From Halorussus marinus (GTDB taxonomy: Archaea; Halobacteriota; Halobacteria; Halobacteriales; Haladaptataceae): a DNA stretch of 64,000 bases. Positions 40,908 through 61,762 of this stretch are shown here, one piece after another. Every line of letters begins with the position of its first letter. Position 1 is the first letter of the stretch. Under the pieces are notes generated by a model, which worked only from the letters and a program-made list of their open reading frames with translations, did not search any database and was not told where the DNA came from. The DNA is taken from the NCBI RefSeq assembly GCF_004765795.1, contig NZ_SBIV01000002.1:1-64000 (forward strand), in the 5' to 3' direction. Both the position numbers and the translations under genes were made by a program.

Positions 40908-41654
40908 ATGGCGCACGTCACCGTACACGATGAGGACGTCGATCTCGACAGCCCGACGATGGTCGAAGGACTGCCGGGCGTCGGGCTGGTCGGCAAGCTC
41001 GCGACCGACCACCTCGTCGAGACGCTCGATATGACCTACTACGCCAGTCTGGAGTGTGAGGGCCTGCCGCGCATCTCGGTCTACGAGTCGGGGAGCCGCG
41101 AGGTCCGCCCGCCGGTCCGGGTGTACGCCGACGCCGACCGGGACCTGCTCGCGCTCCAGAGCGACGTGCCAGTCTCGGCCTCGGCGGCCGCGGACTTCGC
41201 GAACTGCGTCACGGAGTGGCTCGACGACAACGACGCCACGCCGATCTACATGAGCGGGCTCCCCCGCGAGAAGGAGGCCGACCGCGTTCCGTCGCTGTAC
41301 GGGGTCGCCACCGGCGACGGGGCCGGACGGCTCGACGACAACGACATCGGCCGCCCGAGCGAGCGCGGCGCCGTCAGCGGCCCGACCGGCGCGCTCCTCC
41401 ACGAGGCCGGCGTCCGCGGGTTCGACGCGGTGGGACTGGTCGTCGAGAGCGACCCGCAGTTCCCGGACCCGGAGGCCGCCCACATCCTGATCGAGAACGG
41501 CATCGCGCCGCTGACCGGCGTCGAGGTCGCGACCGAGGACCTCGTCGACCGCGCCGAGGAGATCAGCGATCAGAAAGAGCAACTCGCCCAGCGGATGCAG
41601 GAGGCCGACCCCGACGAGAGCTCGCAGGCCCAGCCGCTTCGGATGTTCCAGTAG
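40908..41654 (+). CDS. PAC2-family proteasome assembly chaperone-like protein
   Basis: 248 residues of the PAC2/PbaA-PbaB family, which assist or cap proteasome rings. N-terminal MVEGLPGVGLVGKLATDHLV is the family hallmark; TGALLHEAGVRGFDAVGLVV and PDPEAAHILIENG follow, and the C-terminus is a charged helix ending LRMFQ, resembling the HbYX-type tails that dock on the proteasome only loosely. Its stop is followed after one base by dispersed element copy A. Confidence 0.85.
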   Translation: MAHVTVHDEDVDLDSPTMVEGLPGVGLVGKLATDHLVETLDMTYYASLECEGLPRISVYESGSREVRPPVRVYADADRDLLALQSDVPVSASAAADFANCVTEWLDDNDATPIYMSGLPREKEADRVPSLYGVATGDGAGRLDDNDIGRPSERGAVSGPTGALLHEAGVRGFDAVGLVVESDPQFPDPEAAHILIENGIAPLTGVEVATEDLVDRAEEISDQKEQLAQRMQEADPDESSQAQPLRMFQ

Positions 41655-41655
41655 A

Positions 41656-41846
41656 ACCTTTTGCTGTGGGCGCGGCACGAGCGCCGCGCCCTTGCAAAAC
41701 GTTCGTGAAAACCGCCGGGAGAGCTTCGCTCTCCCGAGCCTGCGTTCGCTTTGCTCACGCAGACGCCGTCACCGCCTCACGAGCGCCTGCGGCGCTCGTT
41801 CGACGGTTCCTTGGTCCGCTCGCTCACGGTACGTTCGCTCGCGGTG
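41656..41846 (+). repeat. Dispersed structured element, copy A
   Basis: Begins ACCTTTTGCTG directly after the PAC2 stop. Outer stem TTTTGC (41659-41664) with GCAAAA (41694-41699); inner stem GGGCGCGGC (41668-41676) with GCCGCGCCC (41683-41691), loop ACGAGC. Then follow palindromes such as GGGAGAGCTTCGCTCTCCC, CTGCG...CGCAG and GAGCGCCTGCGGCGCTC, and the end block TTGGTCCGCTCGCTCAC ... GTTCGCTCGCGGTG. Shares blocks with copies B, C and D. Open frames through it are Arg/Ala-rich and not believed. Confidence 0.8.
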
Positions 41847-42013
41847 TGGCCTCTACGTCCCCATAGAGTTTCGAATCTGCGCTGGCTGGTGAAAAATACC
41901 AGTCGATAGTATTACATTTTCTTATTCAGAACTTCCAGTGTAACCCCGGATAGATGCAGAGCGTGTATTGAACATTTCAATTGGTAGGGGTGGTATACCA
42001 CTCACAGATAGAG

Positions 42014-42020
42014 TTTATAT
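42014..42020 (+). promoter_or_regulatory. TATA box of the island membrane gene
   Basis: TTTATAT centred about 31 bases before ATG 42048, in AT-richer DNA. Confidence 0.5.
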
Positions 42021-42047
42021 GAATGACCGTTGTATCCCGACTCTCTG

Positions 42048-42446
42048 ATGAATGGCGAGCAAGTACATCAAGGGTCGCACCGCCAAAGACGGGAGCCAGA
42101 CGTTTCTGGCAACTGGTGGTACATCCTTCTACTGAATGGACTTATCTATATTATTGGCGCTCTTGTTGGAGTCGGAATTGGGTTACTCGGCAATAGCATT
42201 GCCTCTCTGGCCGACACGCAGACAGCAGTCCAATTTGTTGAAACCGCTCTTAACGTAACCAGCGTAGTGATTATCGGACTAATCTTTCTTACTCCGATAG
42301 CAGTTCACTTTGACCGAGAATACGTCCGAGCAGTTTCCTCGTGGACACCAACGCCGTTCTACTATCTCGTCTTCCTTGGGCCACTCGGGTCGCTCATCTC
42401 ACTTATCTACCTCTACCACCGTCACAACCATGTGGGAACACCGTAA
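42048..42446 (+). CDS. Orphan three-helix membrane protein in AT-richer DNA
   Basis: 132 residues with three hydrophobic segments (WWYILLLNGLIYIIGALVGV, SVVIIGLIFLTPIAV and FYYLVFLGPLGSLISLIYLY) and a His-rich C-terminus (YHRHNHVGTP). No family recognised. Codon use and base content are clearly more AT-rich than the neighbours, a sign of transfer. ATG 42048 fits the TATA box; a TTG at 42030 is possible in frame. Confidence 0.65.
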   Translation: MNGEQVHQGSHRQRREPDVSGNWWYILLLNGLIYIIGALVGVGIGLLGNSIASLADTQTAVQFVETALNVTSVVIIGLIFLTPIAVHFDREYVRAVSSWTPTPFYYLVFLGPLGSLISLIYLYHRHNHVGTP

Positions 42447-42563
42447 CTGTCTGAACCATGGGCGCCATTTTACTTTCATTGCTCAATCCGCACCACGTAT
42501 CGAGCAAAACCACGGAGTCATTCACGAACTGCAGACTAAATAAAACCGTATCACCAACTGCTG

Positions 42564-47550: not shown

Positions 47551-48060
47551 CTATCGGAGTTCGGCGCGGAGGTCCTCGAGCGCCCGGCGGGCGATCTGTT
47601 CTTTGATCGCCCGGCGGTCGCCGTCGAACTCGTAGCGCGAGACGGTCGCGAACGACTCCTGGGTGCCCCAGTCGGCGGCGTACGCCACGCCGACGAACAC
47701 GGTCCCGACCGGCTTCTCGTCGGTCCCGCCGGTCGGCCCGGCGATCCCGGTGGTGGCGACGCCCCACGTCGCGTCGGCCACGTCCCGGACCCCGCGGGCC
47801 ATCTGGCGGGCGACCGGCTCGCTGACCGCCCCGGACTCGTCGAGGCTCTCACGAGAGACGCCGAGGTGCTGGCGCTTGGCGTCGTACGAGTAGGTGACGA
47901 GACTCCGGTCGAAGTAGTCGCTCGATCCGGCCACGTCGGTCAACAGCGAGCCGATCAGGCCGCCGGTACACGACTCCGCGACCGCGACGGTCTGGTCGGC
48001 CTCCCGGAGCGGGTTCCCGATCCGTTCCTCGATCGGCGGGTCGTCGGCGTGTTCGCGCAT
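47551..48060 (-). CDS. CinA C-terminal (PncC-type) nicotinamide-nucleotide amidase
   Basis: 169 residues of the stand-alone CinA-C domain, which deamidates nicotinamide mononucleotide in NAD recycling. Hallmarks are VAVAESCTGGLIGSLLTD, RSLVTYSYDAKRQHLGV and ATTGIAGPTGGTDEKPVGTV. Start at MREHADDPP, 52 bases after the acetyltransferase gene. Amidase activity is known for bacterial relatives and inferred here. Confidence 0.9.
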   Translation of the reverse strand: MREHADDPPIEERIGNPLREADQTVAVAESCTGGLIGSLLTDVAGSSDYFDRSLVTYSYDAKRQHLGVSRESLDESGAVSEPVARQMARGVRDVADATWGVATTGIAGPTGGTDEKPVGTVFVGVAYAADWGTQESFATVSRYEFDGDRRAIKEQIARRALEDLRAELR

Positions 48061-48112
48061 GGCCGGACCGAGGGGCGCGGACGGAAAGAATGTGTGGGCT
48101 CCGGCGGGGCGG

Positions 48113-48694
48113 TCACCCGCCGGTGTCGTACTTGTAGGTCGCGGAGTCGGGGTCGATGCCGAAGTCCTCGGCCGACTCCTCGGGCTCGCCGTCGTCGTCG
48201 GTCGGCTGGGCGCCCTTGAACCGCTCGCGGAGCCGGTCGGGCATCTCGAACTCCGCGACGGCGAGACGCATCCCGACTGCGTCGGGGTCGAGGTTCTCGC
48301 GTTTGGTTTCGAGGCGCTCGACGAGCCGATCGGGGAGGTCGGCGGCATCGGCGCCCTCGAAGCCGAACTGCGCGAGGTAGTCGGTCGCGCTCGTCAGCGA
48401 GTAGACGGTCTCGAACGACTGATCGCGGGCGTGTTCGACCAGTCGCTCGACGACGTGGGCGCCGACGCCCTGCCGGCGCCACGAGTCCAGCACGCCGATG
48501 CTGGTGAGCTCACAGAACTCGCCCTCGTCGGTCTTGTGGATGCGGATGCGGCCGAACCCGGCCTTCTCGCCCGACGCCTCGTCGATGGCGACCACGTAGT
48601 CTCGCGAGCGGAACGCGGTTTCGTCCAGCCCCATCTCCTCGATGTGGTCGAGCAGCCAGACCTCCTCCCTGTTTTTCGCGTCCCGGACGTACAT
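48113..48694 (-). CDS. GNAT family N-acetyltransferase
   Basis: 193 residues. Acetyl-CoA site is visible in CELTSIGVLDSWRRQGVGAH with the Q/R-x-x-G-x-G/A signature. Following region shows VYSLTSATDYLAQFGFEG, typical of the fold's last strands. A ~60-residue acidic tail follows the domain. Substrate not assignable. Confidence 0.88.
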   Translation of the reverse strand: MYVRDAKNREEVWLLDHIEEMGLDETAFRSRDYVVAIDEASGEKAGFGRIRIHKTDEGEFCELTSIGVLDSWRRQGVGAHVVERLVEHARDQSFETVYSLTSATDYLAQFGFEGADAADLPDRLVERLETKRENLDPDAVGMRLAVAEFEMPDRLRERFKGAQPTDDDGEPEESAEDFGIDPDSATYKYDTGG

Positions 48695-48768
48695 GGGTGT
48701 CCGTTCGCCGCCGTACGGTAAAAAGGGTGGCGCTCGCCCGAGTCGGGCGCGGCCGGAGCCGACCGGAG

Positions 48769-49074
48769 TCAGAGCCCGCCGGTCACCTCGTCGAGGCGGT
48801 TCACGACCTGCTGGAGGTCGGCCGCGTCTTCGATGGCGTCGCGTGCGCGCTCGCGCTGGCGGACCTCCGCCGCGCTCGCGCCGTAGGCCCGGACGTACTC
48901 CGCTCGCGAGTGCTCGTTGAACGCGTGCCGGATCGCGAAGTAGCCGTCGGGGACGACCGACCCGCACACCTTGCACTCGCGGCGCTTGTGGTCGGTCGTC
49001 TGGTGGACGATGGCTTCCTCGACGTCGTCGAACTCCTCGCCGCAACCGTCGATGGCGCACTCCCAGTCGCTCAT
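48769..49074 (-). CDS. Double C2H2-like zinc-finger protein
   Basis: 101 residues. Two Cys2His2-like units: CAIDGCGEEFDDVEEAIVHQ ending with TTDH, and CKVCGSVVPDGYFAIRHAFN ending with EH. A charged helical tail follows. Small zinc-finger proteins are common in haloarchaea and may bind nucleic acid or protein; role unknown. A TATA-like ATTTACC about 27 bases upstream supports the start MSDWEC at 49074. Confidence 0.82.
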   Translation of the reverse strand: MSDWECAIDGCGEEFDDVEEAIVHQTTDHKRRECKVCGSVVPDGYFAIRHAFNEHSRAEYVRAYGASAAEVRQRERARDAIEDAADLQQVVNRLDEVTGGL

Positions 49075-49115
49075 GAGCGGGTGGTCGAACTCCCCCGGTA
49101 AATCTCTTTCCGCCC

Positions 49116-49262
49116 GACCTTTTGCTGCGGGCGCGGCACGAGCGCCGCGCCCTTGCAAAAGCTCGATCAAAAACCGGCGCTCCTCCCGACGTTCGCTGCG
49201 CTCACTCTGGTCGTCGCTTGGTCCGCTCGCTCGGGCTTCGCCCTCGCTCGCGGTGCGATTGC
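49116..49262 (+). repeat. Dispersed structured element, copy B
   Basis: Outer stem CTTTTGC (49119-49125) with GCAAAAG (49155-49161); inner stem GGGCGCGGC (49129-49137) with GCCGCGCCC (49144-49152). Then GCTCGATCAAAAAC and the block CGCTTGGTCCGCTCGCTC ... CTCGCTCGCGGTGCGA as in copy C. Lies in the spacer between the zinc-finger gene and the 48-residue gene. Copy C faces it on the other side of that gene. Confidence 0.8.
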
Positions 49263-49334
49263 TGGAGCAACTGTGGACTGTCGAGGCGGCGCGACTCCAT
49301 CAGACCTTTCTCGGCGACTCACATTCGTGGACGT

Positions 49335-49481
49335 ATGAGCGACATCGAAGACGCAGTAGACGAGTTCCTCCGCGAGACGGATACGGTGTTTAGCGAGTAC
49401 GAACAGGGGTATATGGACGCGGACGCGGCCCTAGAGCGTATCGAGAACCATATCGGGACGCTGCGAGAGCAGCGGGAGTAG
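49335..49481 (+). CDS. 48-residue acidic protein
   Basis: Starts MSDIEDAVDEFLRETDTVF and runs to TLREQRE; likely two helices. Good haloarchaeal composition and a sensible start make it believable even though it is short. An open frame continues upstream through element B but that part is an artefact. The gene sits between two inverted element copies. Function unknown. Confidence 0.65.
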   Translation: MSDIEDAVDEFLRETDTVFSEYEQGYMDADAALERIENHIGTLREQRE

Positions 49482-49520
49482 CGACTCTCGAAGCAGCCTG
49501 ACTAACCGCCGTTGAGTACC

Positions 49521-49680
49521 TGCAGTCGCACCGCGAGCGAACGGAGTGAGCGAGCGGACCAAGGAACCGTCGACCGAACGCCCGAGCGAAGCGAGGGCGG
49601 GAGGGAGGCGGTGACGCCGTGTTTTTGATCGAGCTTTTGCAAGGGCGGCGCGTTCAGGCGCCGCCCGCAGCAAAAGGTCG
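49521..49680 (-). repeat. Dispersed structured element, copy C
   Basis: Read on the minus strand it starts CGACCTTTTGCTG immediately after the geranylgeranyl reductase stop. Outer stem: plus-strand CTTTTGC (49634-49640) with GCAAAAG (49670-49676). Inner stem: GGGCGGCGC (49643-49651) with GCGCCGCCC (49658-49666), which differs from A/B on both arms so pairing is kept. The end block matches A (TCGACGGTTCCTTGGTCCGCTCGC) and B. Confidence 0.8.
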
Positions 49681-51051
49681 TTAGTATTTAGGCTCGGCGC
49701 CGGTCGTCGCGTAGATGTCGTCCATGATCGCGTCCCGGCGGGCCTGCCACCCCGAGAGCCGGTCCGGCGAGGAGGGGTAGTCCCGATAGTGGTCGATGAG
49801 GTCGTCGGCGTGGCGCTTGGTCTTGTAGAGGTCGTAGATCAGGTCCCAGTGGCCGATGGACTTGATCGCGGTCTGGACCTTGAGCCACCAGCCGACGTTG
49901 GCGCTGCCCGAGTAGAGCGCCTCGGCGAGCTTGTCGGAGGGGAGCGCGCCGAGCAGTCCCATGAGGTCGTCAACGTCGACCGCGGTCGAGAAGACGTTGT
50001 ACACGTCGAGGCCGGCGTAGCGCGCGCCGAAGTGGTCCATGACGCGCTCGTTGTACTCCCAGAGGGCGTCCTCGCCGACGTCGCCGTCCTCGATCGCGTC
50101 GATCGCGGCCTCGGCGGCGTACTTGCCGGCGTAGGCCGCGCCCGCGATCCCGCCGCCGGTAGTGGGGTTGACGTGGCCGGCCGCGTCGCCGACCGCCACG
50201 AACCCGGGCGCGACCGCCGAGTCGTAGGGCCGGCGGGTCGGGAGCGCCGCCCCGAGTTTGTCCTCGACCGTCGCGCCCGCGAACTCCGGCCGATTGCGGA
50301 GGTCGCGCTTGAGGTCGTCGACGAGGTGCATCGGCTCCTCGTTCATCTGGAAGCCGAGCCCGGCGTTGATCTCGGTCTCGGTCCGCGGGAAGTACCAGAG
50401 GTAGCCCGCCGCCCGTTCGGTCGGCTTGAACACCAGCGCGTCCGACCACTCGACCGGCTCCTCGACTTCGACGATCTCGCGGTAGGCCGAGCAGAACTGC
50501 GAGTAGGTGACGTTGGTGTCGAACGTGCTCTGGTCGAGGTCGGCCTTGTCCTGGAGGATCGACAGCGAGCCGGCGGCGTCGACCACCACGTCGGCGTTGT
50601 ACCGCTGGACGCTCCCGTCGCGTTTGCCCCGGACGCCCGTGACCCGACCGTCCTCGCGCTGGGTCACGTCTTTGACGACCGTGTCGTAGTGGAACTCGAC
50701 GCCGGCGCGTTCGGCACCCTCGATGATCGACCGACCGTACTCCCACCGGTCGATGACCGCGAGTTCGCCCGGCACCGGGATCTCGAGGACGGTGTCCTCC
50801 TGTGGGATCTCGAACCGGCCGTGGTCGACGTCGGTGTTGGTGAACGACGACGCCAACTGGGACTTCGGGATGGCCTCGGGAAAGGCGTCGGCGCCCTTGA
50901 GCGCGTCGCCGCAGGCGATGTGGCCCGCCTCCTCCTCGTCCTTCCGCTCGACGACGACGACATCGTAGCCCGCGTCGCTGGCGGTGGCGGCGGCGTAACA
51001 GCCGGCCGTTCCCGCGCCGACGACGACGACGTCGTGCTCGTGAGTAGCCAT
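49681..51051 (-). CDS. Geranylgeranyl reductase family protein
   Basis: 456-residue FAD-dependent reductase that saturates isoprenoid double bonds, most likely in archaeal membrane lipids or quinones. Dinucleotide fold VVVVGAGTAGCYAAATASDAG at the start, second FAD motif AVGDAAGHVNPTTGGGI near residue 290, and PxxYxWxFP-like AAGYLWYFPRTETEINAG. Tyr-rich C-terminal helix region follows. A TATA-like GTATAAAG (51084-51092) lies upstream of ATG 51051. Exact substrate (lipid, menaquinone or chain) not fixed. Confidence 0.9.
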   Translation of the reverse strand: MATHEHDVVVVGAGTAGCYAAATASDAGYDVVVVERKDEEEAGHIACGDALKGADAFPEAIPKSQLASSFTNTDVDHGRFEIPQEDTVLEIPVPGELAVIDRWEYGRSIIEGAERAGVEFHYDTVVKDVTQREDGRVTGVRGKRDGSVQRYNADVVVDAAGSLSILQDKADLDQSTFDTNVTYSQFCSAYREIVEVEEPVEWSDALVFKPTERAAGYLWYFPRTETEINAGLGFQMNEEPMHLVDDLKRDLRNRPEFAGATVEDKLGAALPTRRPYDSAVAPGFVAVGDAAGHVNPTTGGGIAGAAYAGKYAAEAAIDAIEDGDVGEDALWEYNERVMDHFGARYAGLDVYNVFSTAVDVDDLMGLLGALPSDKLAEALYSGSANVGWWLKVQTAIKSIGHWDLIYDLYKTKRHADDLIDHYRDYPSSPDRLSGWQARRDAIMDDIYATTGAEPKY

Positions 51052-60891: not shown

Positions 60892-61023
60892 CAAGCGAGA
60901 TTCCGTGACGGCGTCTGGCCGGGAAAAGCGAACGCAGGCTCGGGGACTCTGCTCTTTCGGCGGTTTTCGATCGAGCGTTTGCAAGGGCGACGCGTTCAGG
61001 CACCGCCCGCAACGAAAGGTCGT
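60892..61023 (-). repeat. Dispersed structured element, copy D (diverged)
   Basis: On the minus strand it begins ACGACCTTTCGTTGCGGGCG. Inner stem arms (61000-61008 and 60985-60993) pair as GGGCGGTGC/GCGTCGCCC on the minus strand through two G-U pairs, which would be A-C mismatches on the plus strand. Outer stem CGTTGC/GCAAACG has one bulged base. CGAGCCTGCGTTCGCTTTT and CAGACGCCGTCAC match copy A. The end block is lost. Its 5' end lies 7 bases before the TATA box of the next gene. Confidence 0.72.
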
Positions 61024-61063: not shown

Positions 61064-61762
61064 ATGACTGCACCGTGGGACGACTGGGACCACGTCCTGA
61101 AGATCGACCCCGACAAGCGTCTCGTGGAGGGCGAGACCTTCGAGGACGTCTGTCGGACCGGAACCGACGCGCTCGAAATCGGCGGCACGCTCGACGTGAC
61201 CAGCGAGAAGATGGAGCAGGTCATCGACGCCTGCGCGAAGTACGACGTCCCCCTGTATCAGGAGCCGAGCAACCCCGCGGTCGTCGTCGAGGACGAGGCG
61301 CTCGACGGCTACCTCGTGCCGGTCGTGCTCAACGCGGGCGGCGTCTCGTGGGTGACGGGCGCACACAAAGAGTGGGTCCGGATCACCGACGTCGACTGGG
61401 ACCGGACGACGACCGAAGCCTACATCATCATGAACCCCGACGCGAGCGTGGCCGAACTCACCGGCGCCGACTGCGACCAGTCGGTCGAGGACGTGGCGGC
61501 CTACGCCGAACTGGCCGAACAAATGCTCGGCCAGGAGATCGTCTACGTCGAGTACTCGGGCACCTTCGGCGACCCGGAGGTCGTCGCGGCGGCTCAGGGA
61601 GCGCTCGACGCGGCCACGCTCTTCTACGGCGGCGGCATCCACGACTACGACTCGGCGTACGCGATGGCCCAGCACGCCGACACCGTGGTCGTCGGCGATC
61701 TCGTCCACGAGGAGGGCGTCGACGCGGTCGCAGAGACCGTCGACGCCGCGAAAGACGCCTAG
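61064..61762 (+). CDS. Geranylgeranylglyceryl phosphate synthase
   Basis: 232-residue TIM-barrel enzyme joining geranylgeranyl diphosphate to glycerol-1-phosphate, the first ether bond of archaeal lipids. Family marks: [75 protein letters not shown] and phosphate-binding [15 protein letters not shown] with [13 protein letters not shown]. Haloarchaeal short-type (group I). It comes after topA on the same strand and overlaps the end of the convergent permease by 4 bases. Confidence 0.94.

Follow-up and report, generated by a model that had tools for sequence, protein, structure and literature searches.

Why does a gene of only 48 residues sit between two inverted copies of the same palindromic element? 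The question arises in a 64,000-nucleotide stretch of a Halorussus marinus contig, here called the window, in which the arms of element B (+, 49115-49174) and element C (-, 49621-49680) are 60 nt long and 88% complementary. The first-pass annotation had described this inverted pair around the small gene, with a gap of 258 nt, and both descriptions hold, the gap being about right once the tails are counted (Table 1). It had also raised the possibility of a very long hairpin in a transcript covering both elements; the predicted fold of the RNA from B to C is one long hairpin (-329.6 kcal/mol, z -11), and single elements also fold locally (-33 to -38 kcal/mol, predicted).

B and C each belong to a flanking gene, B to the DUF7565 gene, whose start codon lies 40 nt from the left edge of B, and C to the geranylgeranyl reductase family gene (GGR). 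That the two enclose the small gene is an accident of which genes became neighbours, which placed two gene-edge elements face to face. In our main reading, to which we give a probability of roughly 0.6, both are members of an order-wide haloarchaeal family of bidirectional transcription-boundary palindromes, which are also recombination sites.

Table 1. Elements of the family in the window and the genes that bear on the B-C locus (positions in the window).
Feature	Coordinates	Strand	Remarks
PAC2-family gene	40908-41654	+	Neighbours the small gene in relatives
Element A	41654-41846	+	First hairpin base is the final G of the PAC2 TAG stop; right end of tail approximate
DUF7565 gene	48769-49074	-	Core promoter adjoins B
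Element B	49115-49263	+	Head hairpin at 49115-49173, followed by a tail of GC-rich nested palindromes whose right end is approximate
48-residue gene	49335-49481	+	Between B and C; no named family
Element C	49519-49680	-	Head hairpin 49622-49680 immediately 3' of the GGR stop codon; tail to about 49519
Geranylgeranyl reductase family gene (GGR)	49681-51051	-	Stop codon adjoins C
Element D	60964-61022	-	Lies 41 nt 5' of the start codon of the + gene at 61064

A codon-usage scorer, which had been trained on the window, rates the small gene as coding. It was found in 28 of the 40 genomes searched, these being our own genome, 17/17 congeners, 6/6 other members of the family and 4/16 others of the order. 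A family search gave nothing above cut-off; a Pfam match to PF02346 falls below its own cut-off and is probably a coiled-coil artefact.

As for the elements, a 22-nt core pattern matches at 49152 (+), 49622 (-) and, with 2 mismatches, 60964 (-), with no match in 100 dinucleotide shuffles. A loop-independent pattern recovers A, B and C in the window and has no match in 20 shuffles. Rfam models over 48000-51000 gave nothing above the gathering score and two sub-threshold matches, neither of them on B or C, and BLAST found no match to B or C in plasmid records.

The head of the element follows a fixed plan. On the 5' side an outer stem of at least 3 bp is followed by 1-2 unpaired nucleotides, T4-6 and a variable GC stem-loop; on the 3' side come A4-6, 1-2 nucleotides, the complement of the outer stem, and then three bases and A4-7. 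Counted over 125 of the 129 copies of the positional set described below, the starts of the two A runs are 12 nt apart in 116, the 5' side of the hairpin carries T3-6 in all 125 (T4 in 110), and the distal A4-6, which is a T tract on the other strand, is present in 122. After the head comes a tail of nested GC-rich palindromes, and whole elements measure approximately 120-330 nt as judged by eye.

The outer stem varies in sequence and is nearly always matched (CGA/TCG, CAA/TTG, GAA/TTC, GGA/TCC, GTA/TAC, CCA/TGG). For three alignments, the covariation score is higher than in any of 500 shuffles or in any slide; as the alignments had been fitted to the model or selected by it, the orthologous sites, which were found through the flanking proteins, are the cleaner evidence. 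Such sites keep their position with compensatory changes in the stem, bases of the stop codon among them. At the PAC2 stop, TAG followed by AACC pairs with GTTC, and TGA followed by AAC pairs with TTTCA. Elements at orthologous stops have very different loops on an identical plan. Among 2235 stem pair cells, 2007 are Watson-Crick, 26 are G.T and 21 are A.C; the near equality of the last two gives no sign of selection limited to one RNA strand.

The positional set began with 160 model matches and was reduced to 129 copies by removing antisense re-hits and the duplicates L088, L089 and L091. It holds 39 copies from our own genome (the window and 31 fetched stretches) and 90 from relatives, the latter drawn from the best-scoring matches, and gene positions were taken from calls of the codon-usage scorer. 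Most copies (82/129) have their start at -2 to +9 nt relative to a co-oriented gene's stop codon, and 11 sit more than 12 nt past such a stop. Considering only the 93 copies with a co-oriented left gene, 82 fall at -2 to +11, against 6.1 expected under uniform placement.

The remaining 36 copies are upstream of a divergent gene. Of these, 24 lie 39-59 nt from its start (17 at 39-42) and 12 fall outside 36-60 nt. When the 24 promoter-side copies are aligned, BRE-like bases appear at -38 to -33 and a TATA-like stretch at -29 to -26; this placement would put the end of the hairpin just outside the core promoter.

Regions between divergent genes hold 5 of the 129 copies, compared with 86 of the 227 baseline regions of at least 60 bp (p ~2e-14), a p value that is optimistic because the baseline, the window plus 20 other stretches (21), is largely orthologous and not fully independent. 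B is among these five, its place there apparently the result of a rearrangement. The tails face each other in 12 of 12 close pairs of elements. By eye, the left flanks vary with no fixed target motif, and the distance to the stop or promoter is constant. Outside the family, 20 copies were taken in other families of the order, again among the best-scoring there; 12 sit at -2 to +4 of a stop, 5 precede a divergent start by 39-44 nt and 3 are elsewhere.

Most congeners have the order PAC2(+), small gene, GGR(-). By a strict rule, an element is present at the PAC2 stop in 15 of 17 congeners and at the GGR stop in 9 of 17, although this rule overlooks nested or half elements visible by eye in L077, partly L079, and L081. 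The two come and go independently among congeners. In L071 and L072, several kilobases of other sequence lie between the small gene and GGR.

All 18 genomes of the genus contain the DUF7565 gene; of the 17 relatives, 13 have it on one contig with the small gene, at a distance of 42-137 kb. An element adjoins its promoter in 5 of the 18 genomes, our own included and one of them judged by eye. In the fetched stretch of 10 of the 17 relatives, a gene like w42564 is found on the upstream side of DUF7565, followed in four by w43241. The order in relatives is then GNAT, DUF7565, w42564 and, in several, w43241. In the window, the order is instead PAC2, A and, further on, w42564 and w43241 at one place, and DUF7565, B and the small gene at the other. 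The adjacency of DUF7565 and the small gene in this genome is derived, most simply by exchange between two elements. Both junctions would be the products expected of one crossover between a PAC2 element and a DUF7565 element with reinsertion of the excised segment, a course that we infer.

Furthermore, the small gene is inverted relative to PAC2 and GGR in 6 of the 18 genomes (L070, L073, L076, L078, L082 and L083). On a tree of GGR and PAC2, a count by eye gives a minimum of three or four changes, with a support of 0.62 at one of the nodes concerned. Facing elements are present on both sides in four of the six inverted cases; the other two are sister genomes with one element.

The first-pass annotation had offered a composite mobile unit, in which B, the small gene and C would have moved or originated jointly. 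This idea has the face-to-face geometry for it and nothing else among our results. The comparison gave the outcome that the annotation itself had named as refuting it: relatives carry the gene with one or both elements missing and the elements with the gene missing, direct repeats or target duplications are not visible by eye at the outer ends of the block, and B goes with DUF7565 as C does with GGR, so we give a common origin next to no credence. Its other suggestion, a matched pair of processing signals, survives in part: both elements are probably boundary signals, of the flanking genes and not an envelope for the small gene.

Our own 3.76-Mb genome yields 44 BLAST pieces of the family and 47 covariance-model rows; two of these rows are antisense re-hits, leaving 45 distinct places, a lower bound since 150 of 4096 first-look candidates were scored. 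The 17 congeners have 3-33 matches each, and of 116 genomes in the order, 84, our own included, contain model matches. Loops are more similar within genomes (0.646) than between orthologues (0.559), in a sample biased by the model having been built from copies of our own genome (G000). Copies with inner loops outside 20-60 nt or with no genome label were excluded from this comparison. The within-genome excess is clear in G000, G016 and G010, smaller in G003 and G005, hardly present in G002 and G004, and absent in G008, G013 and G015. The picture for concerted evolution of loops is thus mixed.

These numbers bear on a further reading, in which the family is a non-autonomous mobile repeat of the REP, MITE or PATE kind that favours gene edges, with B and C as independent insertions. 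Its many copies, the higher overall loop similarity within genomes, the nested modules in the tails and the presence or absence of elements at orthologous sites all agree with it, and a spreading or converting repeat would explain the loops equally well. Against it stand the lack of a target duplication at B or C and of a fixed left-edge motif, both judged by eye, the positions kept across species with compensatory stem changes, and the avoidance of divergent regions. In addition, our own genome has no Y1 transposase (0 PF01797 matches), and the R1 model gave no match at 26 Y1_Tnp loci in 18 Halorussus genomes or at 21 TnpB loci in 4 genomes, on which ground an origin from IS200/IS605 or TnpB was dropped. 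We consider the mobile repeat unlikely; target-guided insertion, with the outer stem as the guide, is conceivable.

A hairpin in the 3'-UTR that acts as RNA on mRNA stability or translation termination, like E. coli REPs, would account for the 82 copies that start within 9 nt of a stop. An effect on translation is reported for E. coli REPs at most 15 nt from the stop (PMC12306157). Yet the hairpin lies outside the transcripts of the divergent genes at whose promoters 24 of the 129 copies are placed, and G.U is not favoured over A.C even when the stop-adjacent copies are taken by themselves (16 vs 13). These equal counts weaken an RNA-only function, and we regard it as improbable.

The bidirectional boundary palindrome has features of several known systems. 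Bacterial bidirectional intrinsic terminators consist of a palindrome shared at gene ends and flanked on each side by A/T tracts. The elements have this in common with them, but their polarity is reversed, with the T tract 5' and the A tract 3' of the GC stem. An ordinary bacterial intrinsic terminator was rejected, the T run coming before the hairpin on both strands. Integron attC-like sites, which hairpins after stops had suggested, were dropped, as many copies are at promoters.

The elements agree with REPs in the loose sense of dispersed extragenic palindromes, many of the copies being extragenic and palindromic. Like bacterial REPs and BIMEs, they are dispersed, in some cases near stop codons, and have mosaic tails; unlike these, they are archaeal, differ in sequence, occur in a genome with no REP-associated Y1 transposase, and have a stem that reaches into the stop codon. 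A REP with its RAYT was set aside on the absence of PF01797 matches from our own genome. In comparison with MITEs, the element has a head unlike its tail, and inspection by eye showed no duplication around B or C.

The PATEs and SMRs of Haloquadratum (PMC3119063) are, like our elements, short, heterogeneous, transposase-free palindromic repeats of haloarchaea that make no target duplications. They differ from our elements, for which no IS200/IS605 link was found and which are anchored at gene edges in positions conserved between species. An IS200/IS605-derived PATE was also rejected by eye, because the left flanks vary and show no fixed 5' target of 4-5 nt. These PATEs/SMRs (PMC3119063) and the REPs (PMC12306157) are the nearest described kinds.

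With archaeal T-stretch terminators the elements share a T tract placed after genes. The motif at intergenic terminations in Haloferax is a T stretch, and for T5C a termination of 95% in vivo is reported (PMC7237163). The T-stretch terminators of Haloferax volcanii in that paper resemble the elements in having intergenic T tracts after genes, and differ in that the T tract of the elements precedes, and is part of, a covarying hairpin, and that promoters are adjoined too.

The T tracts, the anchoring at stops and promoters, the avoidance of divergent regions and the facing tails fit bidirectional transcription boundaries. In the mechanism we propose, one end of the hairpin would be anchored at a gene edge, either at the stop codon, whose own bases could pair within the stem, or on the upstream side of a core promoter, close to its BRE. 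T tracts on both strands, together with the strong hairpin, would stop RNA polymerase. Read-through and antisense transcription would thereby be kept out of the neighbouring gene or promoter, and the elements would act as bidirectional terminators or insulators. As the copies are alike, they may also recombine. Crossing over of the PAC2 element with the DUF7565 element would have swapped their right-hand neighbours and placed DUF7565 and B beside the small gene, and in relatives the small gene would have been inverted in place between facing elements. Judged on sequence, the order-wide elements probably mark transcription stops, and recombination between them is probably the cause of the rearrangements. 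Against the terminator reading, the stop-side T tract is usually only T4 and is located before the hairpin, the reverse of a bacterial terminator. The family would also not be the general terminator, since a close match is found at only about 45 places in a 3.8-Mb genome and most genes have no element.

A stronger proposal can be made tentatively: that the elements form an order-wide class of haloarchaeal gene-boundary insulators, acting at the DNA level and hitherto undescribed. They would be anchored within a few bases of the stop codon or the BRE edge, with a stem that recruits the host stop codon, positions that are inherited and loops that are re-homogenised within genomes, and the copies would be natural crossover points that invert or move genes. 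Searches of the open-access literature, judged from listings and abstract openings, brought up no paper describing this element. The wider question is how transcription stops between neighbouring genes in dense archaeal genomes. The near base-exact anchoring at stop codons and promoter edges makes for a countable test, in which transcript ends would pile up in both directions. If the proposal is true, crossovers at matching elements would explain local gene inversions and a larger rearrangement.

Some smaller observations concern the sequence of the elements and their surroundings. The tails of L043, L046, L047, L055 and L057 contain a common nested module, which has hairpins of its own and ends in CGCTCGCGG; its presence inside several tails suggests modular growth. 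Runs of a degenerate short repeat of the ACCGC type extend beyond the tail in L037, L040, L041, L042, L044 and L052. In alignment A1, columns 52-53 and 59 swap jointly between GC...C and CG...G (GCTCGATC vs CGTCGATG), and these coupled columns sit on the same side of the stem. In the window, 41850-42563, between element A and w42564, has a GC content of about 0.55-0.58, compared with 0.65-0.72 around it; these approximately 700 bp of AT-richer DNA may hold an extra gene, a candidate for a small membrane protein.
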